Part shown: positions 1,474-14,659 of the stretch, in pieces
How positions within the stretch are numbered: position 1 is the stretch's first letter
Layout of the letters: each line of letters begins with the position of its first letter
Assembly (NCBI GenBank): GCA_903923175.1
Contig: CAIXWQ010000770.1
Coordinates: forward strand, 1-35,935
Reading direction: 5' to 3'
DNA from: an uncultured delta proteobacterium
GTDB taxonomy: Bacteria; Myxococcota_A; Polyangia; Polyangiales; JADJMO01
Length of the DNA stretch: 35,935 nt
The notes under the pieces: model-generated
Told to the model about the DNA's origin: nothing
Database searches by the model: none
Seen by the model: only the letters and a program-made list of their open reading frames with translations
Made by a program: the position numbers and the translations under genes

Positions 1474-2604
1474 TCAGCGCGTGTCGGACACGACCGCGTA
1501 GCCCGTGCCACCCAGCCGCGAGGGGTCGACGCGGGCCGTCGAGAACGCCTTCTTGATGCACGCCTCGGCGCCGGTCCCCTTGGCGGGTCCGTCGGTCACC
1601 ACGACGCCCGTCACGGTCCCGGAGGGCCCGAACGAGATCGTGACGCGCGACTCGCCGGCGACGCCCACGACGCAGGCGTTCGCGGCCGCCATCCGGAAGT
1701 TGACCGCGCTGCGCACGTCCATCGGCTCCGGGCGCTCGGCCACGTACGGCGGCGGCGCCGTCGCGGTGGCGGTCGGCGCCACCGTCGCCGTGCCTAGCGC
1801 GGTCGCGGTGCTCGGCGGCGACGCGGTGCCGACCGGCACCGTCGTGAACGGCTTCGGGGGGGCCACCATCGGCAACGGCTTGGAGGGCGAGCCGGTCGTG
1901 TCGCCCGCGGTCGTCGTCGGTCGCTCGAGCACGGCGACCGTCGGCGCCGCGCTGTCGCTCGGCGAAGGGGGCCCGGGCGGCGTGACGGTCGCGAGCGCGA
2001 GCGAGTCGGCCGGCTTCGGCGCGAGCGCGCTCGCCTGGGTCGATTCGTTCCTGTTCGCGCTCGAGGATCCGCGCGGCTCGCGCAGCGCGACGCCGAACAG
2101 CCCGATCAGCGCCGCTGCCGCCAGCGCGAGCCCGGCGATCCAGCCACCGTTTCGGCGGTCGGTGCGCCGCGCGGCGGGCGCCGCACCTCCGGCAGGCGCG
2201 CTCGGGAGCTCCGCGTCGTGCAGCGAAATCCGCGCGAGGTGCCGCGGCTCCTTCGCGTGGTCGGAGGCGTGCGAGGCGATCGCGCCATGATCGTCGTGCG
2301 CGGCGTCCTCCGCCTCCTCGTCCGCGCGCCACGGCTCGTCGAGATCGCTCGCGCCCAGCTCGTCGAGCGCGCGGGGCTCGCCGTCGACGCTCCCCTCGGG
2401 GCAGGGCGGCGCGAGCAGCGCGTCGAGCGCCAGGCCAGCGCGCCCTTCGTCGAACAGCTGCCCGGCGACCTCGGGCACCTCCGCCTCCGCCACGCCGATG
2501 GCCCCGAGGGCGCGCGACAACCAGCGCACGTCGTCGTCGCCGGCAGCCTGCTCCAGCACCGCGCCTCGAAGCGCACGATCGAGCGGATCGTCCTTCACGC
2601 TCAC
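1474..2604 (-). CDS. Putative anti-sigma/membrane regulator with His-rich segment and AgmX/TonB-like C-terminus
   Basis: 376 residues from a GTG that overlaps the sigma-factor stop (GTGA), with a GGGAGG ribosome site just upstream. Residues 1-100 are acidic and probably cytoplasmic. Residues 103-129 carry six His (HDDH-x5-H-x3-H-x5-H-x6-H). TM is about 154-174 (WIAGLALAAAALIGLFGVAL). Residues 180-290 are a Pro/Thr/Ser/Ala linker. The last 85 residues end in a small domain with GTVTGVVV and two Cys (NACV, EACIKKAF), resembling the AgmX/PglI or TonB-like C-terminal domain common in myxobacterial envelope proteins. Position and topology suggest it holds the upstream ECF sigma factor at the membrane. 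I see no canonical H-x3-C-x2-C zinc anti-sigma motif. Function is inferred from context. Confidence 0.7.
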   Translation of the reverse strand: MSVKDDPLDRALRGAVLEQAAGDDDVRWLSRALGAIGVAEAEVPEVAGQLFDEGRAGLALDALLAPPCPEGSVDGEPRALDELGASDLDEPWRADEEAEDAAHDDHGAIASHASDHAKEPRHLARISLHDAELPSAPAGGAAPAARRTDRRNGGWIAGLALAAAALIGLFGVALREPRGSSSANRNESTQASALAPKPADSLALATVTPPGPPSPSDSAAPTVAVLERPTTTAGDTTGSPSKPLPMVAPPKPFTTVPVGTASPPSTATALGTATVAPTATATAPPPYVAERPEPMDVRSAVNFRMAAANACVVGVAGESRVTISFGPSGTVTGVVVTDGPAKGTGAEACIKKAFSTARVDPSRLGGTGYAVVSDTR

Positions 2605-3233
2605 CGGGCACCTCCCTTCTTCGCGCGGTCGCCGCCGAGCTCGTCGACGGCCTCCTCGAGCCCGCGTCCGCGCAGCTTCTCGCGCAGCCGCTTGCGGGCC
2701 TCGTGCACGCGCCACGCCACCGTACCCGCCGAGCAGCCGAGGATCGCCGCGGCGTCCTCCTGCGGCACCCCATCCACGCACACGAGCAGCAGCGTGGCGC
2801 GCAGCCCCTCGGGCAGCGCGTCGACCTCGTCGAGCAGCGCGCGCGCGACGCGCTGACGGTCGAGCGCGCTCCCGGGATCTCCCGGTCCGGCGGGCCGCTC
2901 CGCGAGCACGCCCTCGACGCCGGGATCGTCGACGTCGACGTGACGCCGGACGGCGAGCGAGCGTGCGCGGTTGAGCGAGAGGTTCACGGCGATCCGGTAG
3001 ATCCAGGTGAAGAACTCGCTGCGACCGTCGAAGCGAGGGAGCGCTTGGTGGGCGCGGACGAACGCCTCCTGGGCGACGTCGTCGGCGTCGGCGTGGCCGC
3101 GCACCAGCTGCCGGGCGAGGCGCCGGACGCGCGGGCCGTAGCGCCGGACGAGCTCCGTGAAGGCCGCGCCATCGCCGGCGCGCGCGCGATCCACGAGCTC
3201 GCGATCGCTGACTGCGCTGTCGTCTTGCGCCAT
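2601..3233 (-). CDS. ECF-type RNA polymerase sigma factor (RpoE-like)
   Basis: 210 residues from ATG at 3233 ([20 protein letters not shown]), the usual N-terminus of ECF sigma factors. Region 2 includes the core-binding and -10 recognition segment [14 protein letters not shown] then F[10 protein letters not shown]. Region 4 includes [11 protein letters not shown] and the helix-turn-helix [22 protein letters not shown]. The short linker is typical, with no region 3. The frame stays open upstream to 3428, but those residues do not look like the family and no strong ribosome site decides the start. Its stop overlaps the start of the membrane partner, so the pair is probably co-translated and autoregulated. 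Regulon unknown. Confidence 0.9.
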
Positions 3234-3502
3234 CCGGTGCGCGGTTCGTAGGGCACGTCCTATGGAACCGCGCGGGTAGCATAGCTTGGTCGGCGCCCGA
3301 GCGGATCCGCACTCGTTGCAAGCGTCCAATTCCAGTGGAAACCCGCTGTACGCGGCGGCTGCGCAACCATTTCGCAGTCGGCCGAGACGTCGGACATCCG
3401 CGTCACGCCGACCTGCGTTCGCAGCCAAAACCCGCAGCTTCTCGCGCGAGACGAGCGCGGGATGTGGACGCGCTCGGCGTGGGTCGCTACCTATCGCAGC
3501 CG

Positions 3503-4459
3503 ATGTACTTCCAGGATCTCATCCTCACGCTGCAGAGCTTCTGGGCCCAGCGTGGCTGCCTGATCGTCCAGCCCTACAACTCGGAGGTCGGCGCGGGGAC
3601 GTACAACCCGGCGACGTTCCTACGCGCGCTCGGCCCCGAGCCGTGGAACGTGGCGTTCGTGGAGCCCTCGCGTCGCCCCACCGACGGCCGCTACGGCGAC
3701 AACCCCAACCGGCTGCAGCAGTTCCACCAGTTCCAGGTGATCCTGAAGCCGAGCCCGCTGAACATCCAGCAGACCTATCTCGACTCGCTCGTCGCGCTCG
3801 GCACCAACCCGCTCGAGCACGACCTGCGCTTCCTCGAGGACGACTGGGAATCGCCCACGCTCGGCGCCTGGGGGCTCGGCTGGCAGGTCTGGATCGACGG
3901 CCTCGAGATCTCGCAGTTCACGTACTTCCAGCAGGTCGGCGGCTTCGACTGCAAGCCGGTGAGCGGTGAGCTCACCTATGGCCTCGAGCGCATCGCGATG
4001 TACCTGCAGGACGTCGACAACGTGTACGACGTCGAGTTCGCGAAGGGCGTGAAATACGGCGAGATCTACAAGCGCGCCGAGTGGGAGTGGTCGACCTACA
4101 ACTTCGAGGAGGCCGACGTCGAGAAGCACTTCGCGACGTTCGACACCTGCGAGACCGAGGCGAAGCGGCTCCTCCAGCGCGGCAGCAAGCTCGTGAAGGA
4201 GAAGGTCAAGGACAAGGACGTCGAGCGCCTGATCCTCGATCCGAAGGCCGCGCTCGTACTCCCGGCGTACGACTTCGTCGTGAAGGCCGCGCACGCGTTC
4301 AACGTCCTCGACGCGCGCGGCGCCATCAGCGTCACCGAGCGTCAGCGCTTCATCGGCCGCGTTCGCGCGCTCGCGCGCGGGGTCGCCGAGGCGTACCTCG
4401 CGCAGCGCGAGGCGCTCGGCTTCCCGCTGCTCGCCGCGGCCGACACGGCCGCGGAGTAG
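3503..4459 (+). CDS. glyQ: Glycyl-tRNA synthetase alpha subunit
   Basis: 318 residues from ATG at 3503 ([19 protein letters not shown]), which matches the family N-terminus. The open frame extends upstream to 3335 but those residues are not homologous; a GTG at 3479 is the only close alternative. Family blocks are all present: [70 protein letters not shown] and [12 protein letters not shown], then [15 protein letters not shown][13 protein letters not shown]. GlyQ supplies the aminoacylation site of the alpha2-beta2 enzyme. The segment before LPAYD (roughly residues 225-248) holds a charged insertion of about 20 residues not expected from other GlyQ. glyS, normally next door, is absent: the gene converges on a lipoprotein gene 23 bases away. 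Confidence 0.96.
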
Positions 4460-4482: not shown

Positions 4483-4983
4483 TCAGCCGGGCGAGCCGTC
4501 GCTCGAGGCGCGGGCGCCCGCATCGCCTGCCTCGCCCGGTTCGCCGCCGTCGCGGCCCGCGTCGGCCTCCACACCGCATGCCTGGAAGCCGACGACGGTG
4601 GTCGCGTCGCGCATGCAGCGAAAGTCCGTCGCCGGCATCACGCGCCCCGCGCAGCGCTTGACCCAGGCGTCGGTCTCCGCGCGCATCTTCTGGCGAAGCG
4701 CGGCCTCGACCTCGAGCTTCTCGCCCGCGTCGGCGAACGCCGGGGAGCCTCCGTCGGGGGTGAAGGCCTCGTCGACCGCGATCTCGATCTGGCGATCCCG
4801 CAGCGACTCGCAGTCCTGGCGGCTGAGCACCCGTAGATCGTCGTAGCCCGGGCCGGCCGGGGCCGGCGGCATGGCCGGACGCTTTTCGTCGGCACACGCG
4901 ATCAGCGCGAGCGCGACGAGCGCCGGCGTGCAGAGCATCGAGAGCGTCGAGACGATTCGCGCGGCGCGGCTCAGTCGAGGCAT
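4483..4983 (-). CDS. Small lipoprotein with conserved Cys pattern (paralogue of neighbour)
   Basis: 166 residues from ATG at 4983, overlapping the end of the preceding lipoprotein gene by 13 bases. The N-terminus has basic residues, a hydrophobic run and a lipobox ALIAC, so it is a predicted lipoprotein. The mature part has a DC near residue 56, then a long helix-rich stretch, then C-x11-C-x12-C (CAGRVM, RCMRDA, GFQAC) and an Asp/Gly/Ala-rich tail. The spacing C-x11-C-x3-A-x5-F-x2-C is identical to that in the neighbouring lipoprotein (4971-5234), so the two are probably paralogues; this copy has about 24 extra residues between Cys 1 and Cys 2. No known domain recognised. Third gene of a probable operon starting with E1 alpha. 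Confidence 0.75.
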   Translation of the reverse strand: MPRLSRAARIVSTLSMLCTPALVALALIACADEKRPAMPPAPAGPGYDDLRVLSRQDCESLRDRQIEIAVDEAFTPDGGSPAFADAGEKLEVEAALRQKMRAETDAWVKRCAGRVMPATDFRCMRDATTVVGFQACGVEADAGRDGGEPGEAGDAGARASSDGSPG

Positions 4984-5234
4984 TGGAAGAACGAGACCTC
5001 GTCGCTCGCCTTCTCGAGGCACTCGTGGGTGCGGCGCGAGATGACCGTCCCCGGGCACGACTTGGTGAACTTCTCAGCCGCTTCCTTCGACTGCTTCCCC
5101 TTGGCCTTGGCCCACGCCTCGAGCTTGACGCGGTACTCCTCGCAGTCGGGCTGCGTGAGGGTGTAGCTGCGGCACGCGGCCGTCGACGACGCGAGGCCGA
5201 GGAGCAACAGGAGCCGCGCGCGGGCGCGCGTCAT
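4971..5234 (-). CDS. Very small four-Cys lipoprotein overlapping E1 alpha
   Basis: 87 residues from ATG at 5234, whose first bases form the stop of the E1 alpha gene (ATGA). The signal sequence is rich in Leu and ends in the lipobox STAAC. The mature chain has a DC motif, a Lys-rich helix (KLEAWAKAKGKQSKEAAEKF), then SCPG, HEC and FFQC with spacing C-x11-C-x12-C. It is the short sister of the next lipoprotein. The even number of mature Cys beyond the lipid-bearing one would allow two disulfides in the periplasm. The function is not recognisable; the tight coupling to a cytoplasmic dehydrogenase gene may simply reflect operon packing. Confidence 0.72.
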   Translation of the reverse strand: MTRARARLLLLLGLASSTAACRSYTLTQPDCEEYRVKLEAWAKAKGKQSKEAAEKFTKSCPGTVISRRTHECLEKASDEVSFFQCLD

Positions 5235-6376
5235 CCGTGGCCCCCACCGTGCGGGACGGCCGGCGGCGTTCGCATCAGCTCGTCGCGCTGCTCTCGCAGG
5301 TGCCAGGGGAGCTCGGCGTAGACGTCGTCGAAGAGCGTCTCGCGCGCCGGGTTCGGCAGCGGCTCGACCTCCTTGATCGCCGCGATCACCTCTTTGTCGA
5401 GCTCGGCCTCGAGCTCCGCGCGGCGCGCGTCGCTGGTGAGCCCCTTCGCGACCATCCAGGCGTGAAAGCGCTCGACCGGGTCGCGCTGGCGCCACTTCTC
5501 GACCTCGGCCTCGCTCCGGTAGCGCGTGGGATCGTCCGACGTCGAGTGCGCGCCGATGCGGTAGGTGACCGCCTCGACGAACGTGGGGCCGCCGCCGGCG
5601 CGCGCCTTGTCGCAGGCCTTGTTCACGACGTCGTACACGGCCAGCACGTCGTTGCCGTCGACGCGCACCGACTCGACGCCGTACGCCCTCCCTTTGATCG
5701 CGATGGTCGCGGAGACGGTCTGGCGCGCGGTCGGGACGCTGATCGACCAGTGGTTGTTCTGGCAGACGATCACGCTCGGCGTCTTGTAGACGCCTGCGAA
5801 CGTCATCGCCGCGTGGAAGTCGGGCTCGCTGGTGGCGCCGTCGCCGTGGAAGCCGAGCACGACGTCGTCGGTGTGGCGGAGCTTCGCGGCCCACGCGGCG
5901 CCCACCGCCTGCGGCACCTGCGGGCCGATGACCGACGACCAGGAGACCTGGTTCACCGAGCGGCCGCTCATGTGCGACGGCATCTGGCGCCCCTTGAGCA
6001 CGTCGCCGGAGTTGCCGAACACCTGCGCGATGAACTGCGTGAGCGGGAAGCCGCGCACCAGCATGATGGCCTGCTCGCGGAGCGCGGGGAACACCCAGTC
6101 GCTCTTGCGCGTCGCGAAGCCGCACCCGATCGGCACGGCTTCCTGGCCCGTCGCCGCGCCATAGAAGCCCACGCGCCCCTGGCGCTGCAGGACGATCATC
6201 CGCGCGTCGAGGACGCGCACGCGGAGCAGCTCGCGGTGCATGCCGAGCAGCGTCTCGGTCGGGAGGTCGACCGAGCGTGTCTCGGTCGCTCCCTCCATCC
6301 CCATGACGGTGACGAGGCCGAGCGCGGGATCGACGGACGGAGCGACCGCAGCGGCGGGCAGAGGGGCAGGGGCCAT
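5231..6376 (-). CDS. bkdA: Branched-chain 2-oxo acid dehydrogenase-type E1 component, alpha subunit
   Basis: 381 residues, full length for the family. E1 decarboxylates branched-chain 2-oxo acids (from Val, Leu, Ile) with thiamine diphosphate and passes the acyl group to lipoyl-E2. Visible motifs: GRVGFYGAATGQEA, KGRQMPSHM, the ThDP motif starting GDGATSEPDFHAA and ending CQNN, then RVDGNDVLAVYD, YRIGAHSTSDDPTRYR and the tail LFDDVYAELPWHLREQ. HSTSDD and the tail fit BCKDH rather than pyruvate dehydrogenase, which has a different loop. The beta subunit and E2 are not in the window, so it may pair with a distant E1 beta or belong to a second set. In Myxococcus xanthus the esg locus (BCKDH) makes branched-chain acyl-CoA needed for development; a similar role here is only a possibility. 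Confidence 0.85.
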   Translation of the reverse strand: MAPAPLPAAAVAPSVDPALGLVTVMGMEGATETRSVDLPTETLLGMHRELLRVRVLDARMIVLQRQGRVGFYGAATGQEAVPIGCGFATRKSDWVFPALREQAIMLVRGFPLTQFIAQVFGNSGDVLKGRQMPSHMSGRSVNQVSWSSVIGPQVPQAVGAAWAAKLRHTDDVVLGFHGDGATSEPDFHAAMTFAGVYKTPSVIVCQNNHWSISVPTARQTVSATIAIKGRAYGVESVRVDGNDVLAVYDVVNKACDKARAGGGPTFVEAVTYRIGAHSTSDDPTRYRSEAEVEKWRQRDPVERFHAWMVAKGLTSDARRAELEAELDKEVIAAIKEVEPLPNPARETLFDDVYAELPWHLREQRDELMRTPPAVPHGGGHG

Positions 6377-12946: not shown

Positions 12947-14659
12947 TCACGATCGCGGAGGCAGCCGAACCAGCTTGCCGGCGGAGCGCGCGCCGCTCTT
13001 CTCGGCGTCGCTCTTCTCGGCGTCGCGCTTCTCGGCGTCGCGCTGCCACGGGTACTTGATGCGCCCGTGGTAGACGTTGACGAGCGTGTCGGCCATGCGA
13101 CCGACCACCAGCCGCAGATCGGCCGTCGACAGCCCCGACTCGTCGAGCTGACCGGACTTCAGCTTGCCGAAGATCACGCGCTGGATCATCTCCTCGAACT
13201 TGGCGCGCTCAGGCGGCTCCACCGTGCGCGAGGCGGCCTCGATCGCGTCGACCACCATCAGGATCGCGGTCTCGCGCGTGCGCGGCTTCATGCCGGGGTA
13301 GCGAAAATCGTCCGGGCGGAGCCCCTCGGCGTTCCCGCGCTCCTGCTGCTTGTGCCAGAAATACTCGACGACCTGCGTGCCGTGGTGCGTGTACGCGAAC
13401 TCGACGACCGGCTCCGGCACGCCCCCCTCGCGGAGGATCTTCGTCCCTTCGACGACGTGCGCCATGATGGCGTCGGCCGACACGTGCGGCGCGAGCGCCT
13501 CGTGCGGCGAGCGCTCCCCCGGGCCCAGGTTCTCCACGAAATACTTCGGCTGAACCGACTTTCCGAGGTCGTGGTAGTACGCCCCCGCGCGCACCAGCAG
13601 CGCGTCCGCGCCGATCGCCGACGCCGCCGCCTCGGCGAGGTTCGCCATCGCGCGGCAGTGCTCCCACGTTCCGGGCGCCTCGCGGGCCATGCGCTGCAGC
13701 AGCGGCTGCTCCAGATCGACGAGGTCGAGCAGGCGGTCGCGCCCGACGGCCCCCAGCACCCGCTCGGCGATCTCGCGGAACACGAACGCGAGCAGCCCCG
13801 CCGCGATCCCGCCGCCCGCGCAGGCGAGCAGGTTCGAGCGGGCAGGGTGCGTGAGATCGTCGAGGACCGAGAACCCTGCGTCGAACGCGAACGAGGCGGC
13901 CGCGAAGATCACCGCCGCCGGGATCCCACCGAGCAGGCCGGCGAGGATCATCTGGCGTGGGTGCTTGCGATCCTGGAACGCGAGCGACGAGGCCAGGCCG
14001 CGCACCAACACCACCCCGGGCAGCAGGATGTCGAAGCGCACGAAGCTCGAGGCGAAGAACGCCACGACGACGTTGAGCATGAACGCCGTACGTCGATCGA
14101 GGTAGAGCACGCCCCAGAGGGGCACGACCGCGAACGGCACCCAGTAGACCGGGATCGCGGTGAGCATGAGCAGCGCCTTCGCGGTCGCGAGCACGCCCAC
14201 CAGCAGCACGAAGATGCCGACCTGCGGCCGCAGCAGGCGCGCCGCGCTCGGCGCGAAGCGGCGCATGTACGTCGTGAGCAAGAGGCTGAGCGTCAGGTAG
14301 ATGGCGCCGACCCCCGCGACGCGGCCGAACCGCCCGAACGGCCCGCTTGCGCTGGTCGCCTCGTGCGCGAGCGCCAGCCGATGATCGGCGATCGCCTCGT
14401 CCAGCAGCGTCCCTCGCGGCACGATCACCGCGCGCTGCTCGTAGCGGAGCGTCGAGGCGCCGGGGCTCGTCGGCAGGAAGCGCGGCGCGTTCGGCACCCG
14501 CAGCGTGACGGGCGTGATCTCTCCGTAGCGCAGCTCGCCGCGGCCGACCGCCGCGCGCACGATCAGATCGGCCGAGGCGACGAGCGTCAGGAGCGCCGCG
14601 AAGACGACGCTGAGGACGACGCCGGCGGTCGCGCCAGCCGGGATGCGCGTGCGCAGCAC
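12947..14659 (-). CDS. 7TM-HD family phosphohydrolase (PgpH-like, cyclic dinucleotide phosphodiesterase candidate)
   Basis: 570 residues from GTG at 14659. One N-terminal TM (about 8-30), a short periplasmic segment of about 80 residues (shorter than the large extracellular domain of Listeria PgpH), then six or seven TMs (about 110-310), then a cytoplasmic HD domain. The HD motif is AYYHDLGK near residue 362, with a conserved SPHEALAPHVSADAIMAHVV and AYTHHGT downstream, as in PgpH, which hydrolyses cyclic di-AMP. The C-terminal tail has three DAEK(R/S) units and is strongly charged. A role in second-messenger turnover is likely by homology; the substrate is not proven. Next gene downstream is the acyl-CoA dehydrogenase-like gene 63 bases away. 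Confidence 0.87.
   Translation of the reverse strand: MLRTRIPAGATAGVVLSVVFAALLTLVASADLIVRAAVGRGELRYGEITPVTLRVPNAPRFLPTSPGASTLRYEQRAVIVPRGTLLDEAIADHRLALAHEATSASGPFGRFGRVAGVGAIYLTLSLLLTTYMRRFAPSAARLLRPQVGIFVLLVGVLATAKALLMLTAIPVYWVPFAVVPLWGVLYLDRRTAFMLNVVVAFFASSFVRFDILLPGVVLVRGLASSLAFQDRKHPRQMILAGLLGGIPAAVIFAAASFAFDAGFSVLDDLTHPARSNLLACAGGGIAAGLLAFVFREIAERVLGAVGRDRLLDLVDLEQPLLQRMAREAPGTWEHCRAMANLAEAAASAIGADALLVRAGAYYHDLGKSVQPKYFVENLGPGERSPHEALAPHVSADAIMAHVVEGTKILREGGVPEPVVEFAYTHHGTQVVEYFWHKQQERGNAEGLRPDDFRYPGMKPRTRETAILMVVDAIEAASRTVEPPERAKFEEMIQRVIFGKLKSGQLDESGLSTADLRLVVGRMADTLVNVYHGRIKYPWQRDAEKRDAEKSDAEKSGARSAGKLVRLPPRS
12998..13042 (-). repeat. Three 15-bp tandem repeats in the C-terminal tail of the HD protein
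   Basis: Three nearly identical units of CTTCTCGGCGTCGC(G/T) on the plus strand (12998-13012, 13013-13027, 13028-13042) encode DAEK(R/S) three times on the minus strand. In-frame repeats of this size can change copy number by slippage without breaking the frame. They fall after the HD domain, in a tail that probably has no catalytic role. Confidence 0.85.

Follow-up and report, generated by a model that had tools for sequence, protein, structure and literature searches.

Tandem four-cysteine lipoproteins behind a dehydrogenase E1 alpha gene belong to a family widespread in Myxococcota

Introduction

The closest described systems to the proteins considered here are of three kinds. CHCH or twin CX9C proteins are disulfide hairpins, to which the likeness is one of general idea, and DsbC and CcmG are envelope substrates of DsbD. 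The NCBIfam model TIGR04454 (Lepto_4Cys, 'TIGR04454 family lipoprotein', of the type hypoth_equivalog), whose name points to Leptospira, describes a small lipoprotein with four cysteines, as A and B are below. Literature searches on TIGR04454 and on disulfides of Polyangiales lipoproteins found nothing, and the available portions of PMC4758666 and PMC3493377 do not name the family reported here.

Here we compare with these systems two short genes, A and B, in the window, by which we mean the whole stretch of DNA analysed (35,935 nucleotides). It makes up one entire contig in a genome of 10.7 Mb and 1422 contigs. Comparisons were made within the window's own taxonomic family (f1; five genomes, G000-G004, the window's genome included) and with another taxonomic family of the phylum (f2), which is presumably Polyangiaceae. 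A first-pass annotation of the DNA had described A and B as a pair of tandem lipoproteins of a family that it did not recognise, coupled to a BCKDH E1 alpha gene.

Results

A and B lie on the reverse strand in an overlapping unit whose first gene (5231..6376, (-)) encodes the E1 alpha subunit of a 2-oxoacid dehydrogenase of PDH or BCKDH type. The match of this neighbour to E1_dh (PF00676, 4.2e-82) bears out its identification as an E1 dehydrogenase, but not specifically as BCKDH, the best NCBIfam model being that of PDH E1-alpha (TIGR03181) at 392.1 bits, under the cut-off of 411.35. The TGA of E1 alpha (5231-5233) overlaps the ATG of A (5232-5234) as ATGA, and A and B share 13 nt (4971-4983), as had been proposed from the open reading frames. 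Convergent to this unit is a glycyl-tRNA synthetase alpha gene, which from its sequence we take to be glyQ (3503..4459, (+)), with its stop 23 nt from that of B.

Lipoprotein A (4971..5234, (-); 87 aa) has its core cysteines at C31, C60, C72 and C85 and a candidate lipid cysteine at C21, while lipoprotein B (4483..4983, (-); 166 aa), which was aligned with three orthologues, has core cysteines at C58, C111, C123 and C136, a candidate lipid cysteine at C30, a 27-residue linker and an unstructured tail. The predicted signal peptides, taken through the presumed lipid cysteine, cover 5172..5234 (-) in A (from sequence and alignment) and 4894..4983 (-) in B (from sequence); judged by eye, the lipobox is ALIAC in B and an imperfect STAAC in A, with LAGC in two orthologues. 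The four-Cys cores, delimited by translation and model, span 4980..5144 (-) in A (C31 to C85) and 4576..4812 (-) in B (C58 to C136). The tail pattern given in the first-pass annotation, C-x11-C-x3-A-x5-F-x2-C, is exact in both proteins, the first core cysteine follows an aspartate in each (QPDC in A, RQDC in B), and the 24-residue length difference was recovered as a C1-C2 spacing of 28 in A versus 52 in B. Both genes look coding on the evidence of their third-codon-position GC (0.95 in A, 0.89 in B).

Elsewhere in the window, an ECF sigma factor gene (2601-3428, (-); Sigma70_r2, 1.6e-19) precedes a gene that matches nothing in Pfam and may encode its anti-sigma factor (1474-2607, (-)), and a fliP-like gene (657-1433, (+); PF00813, 5.9e-55) lies close to the contig end. 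A 7TM receptor with an HD hydrolase domain (12947-14659, (-); PF01966, PF07698) is, we assume from knowledge of its family, likely to be a cyclic-dinucleotide phosphodiesterase.

Within f1, A sits directly in the E1 alpha unit in all five genomes (in G001 the contig ends within A), and the translational unit proposed for the window is present in each. The two genes are tandem, as had been claimed, but are not merely a pair: in three of the five genomes (G002, G003 and G004) a third tandem four-Cys lipoprotein gene, C, with the spacing C-x10-C-x12-C, stands between E1 alpha and A (L095:5860-6156; L096:9271-9573; L097:7950-8222), and the two genomes from the window's genus (G000, G001) lack C. 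The overlaps recur in L096 and L097 (4 nt between C and A, 13 nt between A and B), and L095 has short gaps. Around the unit, each of the five genomes has carB upstream of E1 alpha, and glyQ is convergent in all four loci that reach it. The window's genome holds further copies of the family on contigs C684, C1208 and C1168. Two proteins contain two four-Cys domains each, L086:5943-6509 in G004 and L192:5530-6534 on C1208; they are 48% identical, and no other neighbour is common to these two loci. A single-protein scan of genome contigs with A returned 267 pattern stretches, none of them a relative, and a scan with the B alignment (A2) returned three loci, all in Deltaproteobacteria-labelled MAGs judged to be duplicates of G002, G003 and G004.

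Searches across the phylum showed how much larger the family is. Relatives were found in at least 27 of 282 phylum genomes with a profile built from A, B and C (A1, E <= 0.1) and in at least 43 with a 43-row profile (A5, E <= 0.01), both counts being lower bounds, since scoring covered the top 14 or 19 candidates in each genome. A single f2 protein used as query found relatives in 100 of 108 f2 genomes (E <= 0.001), mostly as a tandem pair. On plasmids, tblastn with the f2 type 1 domain and with A gave chance matches alone (E 3 or worse).

Of the 55 f2 loci that we examined, the phylum search supplied 18; the other 37 were taken at about one per genus from the 100 positive genomes. Their proteins fall into two types, with type 1 (t1) in 53 loci, type 2 (t2) in 41 and both in 39; two of the loci, L080 and L081, lack type 1 and are second loci. 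A type 1 protein runs from a cysteine through usually eight residues to C1, then 38-46 residues to C2, 11 to C3, 12 or 13 to C4, and usually two more to the stop; the cysteine stands at most 14 residues before C1 in 52 of 53 rows, and the remaining row has masked letters. The type 2 spacing is C2-x10-C3-x12-C4, and its 42 rows comprise 30 with a cysteine at most 14 residues before C1, ten without and two that are pieces of one split frame. Rows without this anchor cysteine often show a TM-like stretch, and from the sequences the lipid anchor thus seems replaceable in type 2 while the four-Cys core is retained. At L076, L083, L099, L118, L128, L130 and L134, type 2 members lack the anchor cysteine and begin with what resembles a membrane helix. 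At L132:5714-5952 the type 2 gene is in two frames, through a frameshift or a sequencing error.

In the A5 alignment the four core cysteines are the sole invariant positions, with the anchor cysteine and one alanine nearly so. Loss of the pattern in orthologues had been named as an argument against the family; all four core cysteines are present in 130 of 141 profile matches over all loci examined, a conservation that is partly built in, the matches being partly redundant and collected with a Cys-rich profile. No paired loss of cysteines that might hint at disulfide connectivity was seen in these 141 matches. At L169 (G231:C65), on a contig with six matches, one protein carries three four-Cys repeats or more.

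By sequence comparison, A and B are true paralogues, as the first-pass annotation had proposed in giving them one shared four-Cys core. The cores align by blastp with 30.6% identity over 49 aa (E 1e-5, without filtering or composition adjustment). HMMs of types 1 and 2, built solely from f2 rows and containing no f1 sequence, list 11 and 9 f1 members, respectively, above every non-member among 1335 frames from five f1 loci; the window's A is the weakest f1 member listed (E 0.018 and 0.14). Shuffles with the cysteines held fixed reached the real score in 0 of 500 cases for A and 0 of 500 for B with either HMM, and together with the HMM ranking this indicates that the similarity exceeds shared cysteine spacing. 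In a tree of 103 short rows, in which half of the inner branches are open and the bootstrap is not settled, B groups with type 1 (88/97), and A and C are unplaced on the type 2 side.

AlphaFold, run with proteins from the window and L095-L097 only, gave models with pLDDT 80.0 and pTM 0.61 for A and pLDDT 73.9 and pTM 0.55 for B, the core of B reaching about 84-96. The predicted elements follow an identical order in A (E23-25 H28-44 H50-59 E64-66 H67-75 H79-86) and B (E50-52 H55-74 H86-111 E115-117 H118-126 H130-135), making one beta-alpha-alpha-beta-alpha-alpha domain in which the 24-residue insertion of B between C1 and C2 would lengthen the helical hairpin. Comparison with the PDB gave no clear structural match among those listed. 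In a fold search, the best VIA among the matches listed was Z 4.5 for A (rmsd 3.5, 61 aligned) and Z 4.2 for B (rmsd 6.5, 75 aligned); Foldseek against the PDB gave no match at E <= 0.001 for either protein among the matches listed, and a PDB profile search returned 0 sequences at E <= 5.

The gene neighbourhood differs between the two families. Among the 55 f2 loci, a TPR gene is a neighbour in 49, DsbD in 37, glyQ in 14 and E1 alpha in none, so the coupling to E1 alpha claimed for the window stands in all five f1 genomes and is confined to f1. Clustering of open reading frames over the 53 type 1 loci, 48 of which extend at least 3.5 kb upstream, gave a TPR cluster in 39, DsbD in 37, glyQ in 14 and any other cluster in at most 12; these counts come from related genomes and so are not independent. 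DsbD is divergent from type 1 in 36 of 37 loci, and its match to DsbD_TM (8.6e-47) together with a thioredoxin-like domain match identifies it as a real DsbD type. At L069:3775-5966, and likewise at 36 more f2 loci, the genes for DsbD-type and TPR proteins stand divergent from the lipoprotein pair. In f1, DsbD-like and TPR relatives occur in all five genomes, apart from each other and from A and B. The DsbD link is thus strong in f2, absent in f1 and, with DsbD elsewhere in f1 genomes, not obligatory. By tblastn between loci, glyQ alone among the neighbours was seen to accompany the family in f1 as well as in f2.

A different setting is seen at L092:3100-9398 and L093:5967-10756, where genes for a TonB-dependent receptor and for small lipoprotein-like products adjoin that of a four-Cys protein in an operon-like arrangement; ExbB and ExbD are also present at L092, and L084:564-6999 shares those gene clusters. 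A stretch resembling MGYRDPAL marks this TonB-associated four-Cys subfamily and recurs in L162-L165. These copies suggest an envelope domain of general use, employed in several settings.

In line with the first-pass annotation's failure to recognise the family, no Pfam family is common to more than one of the 43 A5 members. A match to an already characterised domain had been named as a finding that would speak against novelty, and what was found is a sub-threshold similarity to TIGR04454, whose own function is unassigned: 9 of the 43 members match at E <= 0.1 (best 8.2e-5), the next families having at most two members, and one member matches Lepto_8Cys. C of L096 aligns over residues 2-78 with positions 20-91 of 92 (20.9 bits) and type 1 of L069 over positions 22-85 of 92 (23.0 bits), so that similarity is detectable along most of the model. 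The 35-bit cut-off was reached in 0 of 106 f2 genomes (best 28.7 bits) and 0 of 5 f1 genomes (best 17.2 bits), A and B themselves gave no TIGR04454 match at E <= 1, and control genomes too gave matches at the level of noise, 4 of 14 at E <= 1 and 1 of 14 at E <= 0.01.

Discussion

The four-Cys lipoprotein family is real, widespread in Myxococcota and of undescribed function. That a family present in 100 of 108 genomes of f2, a large family of myxobacteria, has no Pfam model marks a sizeable gap in envelope biology, for which the conserved DsbD and TPR neighbours provide a concrete, testable starting point.

The reading towards which we lean, with modest confidence, is that A and B are tethered miniproteins held by two disulfides and acting as a non-catalytic envelope binding module, in which we infer both the disulfides and a ligand. 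By sequence, each protein comprises a signal peptide with a candidate lipid cysteine, a short linker and a single domain with four near-invariant cysteines; this domain is predicted to combine a short pair of beta strands with four helices. Under the oxidising conditions of the envelope, these cysteines may close into two disulfides that staple the small fold. The tandem copies may act jointly, perhaps as partners in a heteromer, in binding or scaffolding at the membrane surface, with an anchor in the inner membrane or in the periplasmic face of the outer membrane. In f2, the divergent DsbD-type protein would be a likely caretaker of the correct disulfide state, and in f1, E1 alpha would give position and translational coupling, with no shared pathway. 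This reading is supported by an anchor that varies while the four core cysteines are constant, by the tight spacing and by the usual end of the protein two residues past C4; it is weakened by the DsbD and TPR orthologues of f1 lying at other loci and by the non-canonical lipobox of A. The binding-module role is the default for a small non-enzymatic domain and not a result.

It is tempting to speculate that the tandem lipoproteins form a client or relay system dedicated to the DsbD-type transporter in Polyangiaceae, later split from DsbD and re-set behind E1 alpha in the window's family. We regard this idea as doubtful; if true, myxobacteria would have an envelope pathway for thiols or oxidative folding that is as yet undescribed. 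Unlikely, in our judgment, is a role as a redox-active thiol pair, in which the lipoproteins would accept or donate electrons for DsbD in a periplasmic thiol relay: the four conserved cysteines and the position of DsbD, beside a conserved TPR gene, at 37 of 55 f2 loci would suit such a relay, but the core has no CXXC or close cysteine pair (spacings of 10-13 and at least 28), f1 keeps the family without an adjoining DsbD, and at 16 of 53 type 1 loci no DsbD lies in the stretch examined, some stretches ending early. Binding of a metal, haem or small ligand through the four cysteines, as part of uptake systems, is similarly improbable. The operon-like runs with TonB-dependent receptor genes at L092, L093 and, less clearly, L084, and ExbB/ExbD at L092 and L084, would fit it, but the TonB-linked copies belong to other subfamilies than A and B, no TonB/Exb-type genes flank the f1 or f2 loci, and the core lacks a conserved His or Met.

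The link to E1 alpha invites the thought that the lipoproteins serve the dehydrogenase, for instance as a membrane tether or regulator of the PDH/BCKDH complex. Despite adjoining, overlapping genes in all five f1 genomes, this is very unlikely: the signal peptides would direct the lipoproteins to a different compartment from E1, none of the 55 f2 loci has E1 alpha, and carB and glyQ are equally conserved around A and B in f1, which speaks for general synteny. On compartment and the f2 loci, coupling to E1 alpha as a function was rejected; from the latter, the link is lineage-specific, and it is probably incidental local gene order in f1. We give virtually no credence to spurious open reading frames, which short genes, high GC and overlaps might suggest, but which would leave the third-position GC, the orthologues in five f1 genomes and the independent HMM matches unaccounted for.

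Set against known systems, the favoured reading of A and B as disulfide-held, tethered miniproteins shares with CHCH and twin CX9C proteins the idea of a small helical domain with two disulfides, which would apply to A and B by inference. The family differs in its spacing (x28 or more, x10-11, x12-13, and not two CX9C) and in its predicted beta pair and four helices. Like the substrates DsbC and CcmG, it has a tie to DsbD, which it adjoins in f2, but the hallmarks of DsbD partners are not seen, in that the models are helical without a thioredoxin fold and the core cysteines form no CXXC. The nearest named family is TIGR04454, compared here through the NCBIfam model alone, and the sequence similarity makes distant kinship, not membership, probable. 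Weak as it is, this connection to a lipoprotein family named for Leptospira suggests that a four-Cys domain of the envelope is ancient and common to several phyla.
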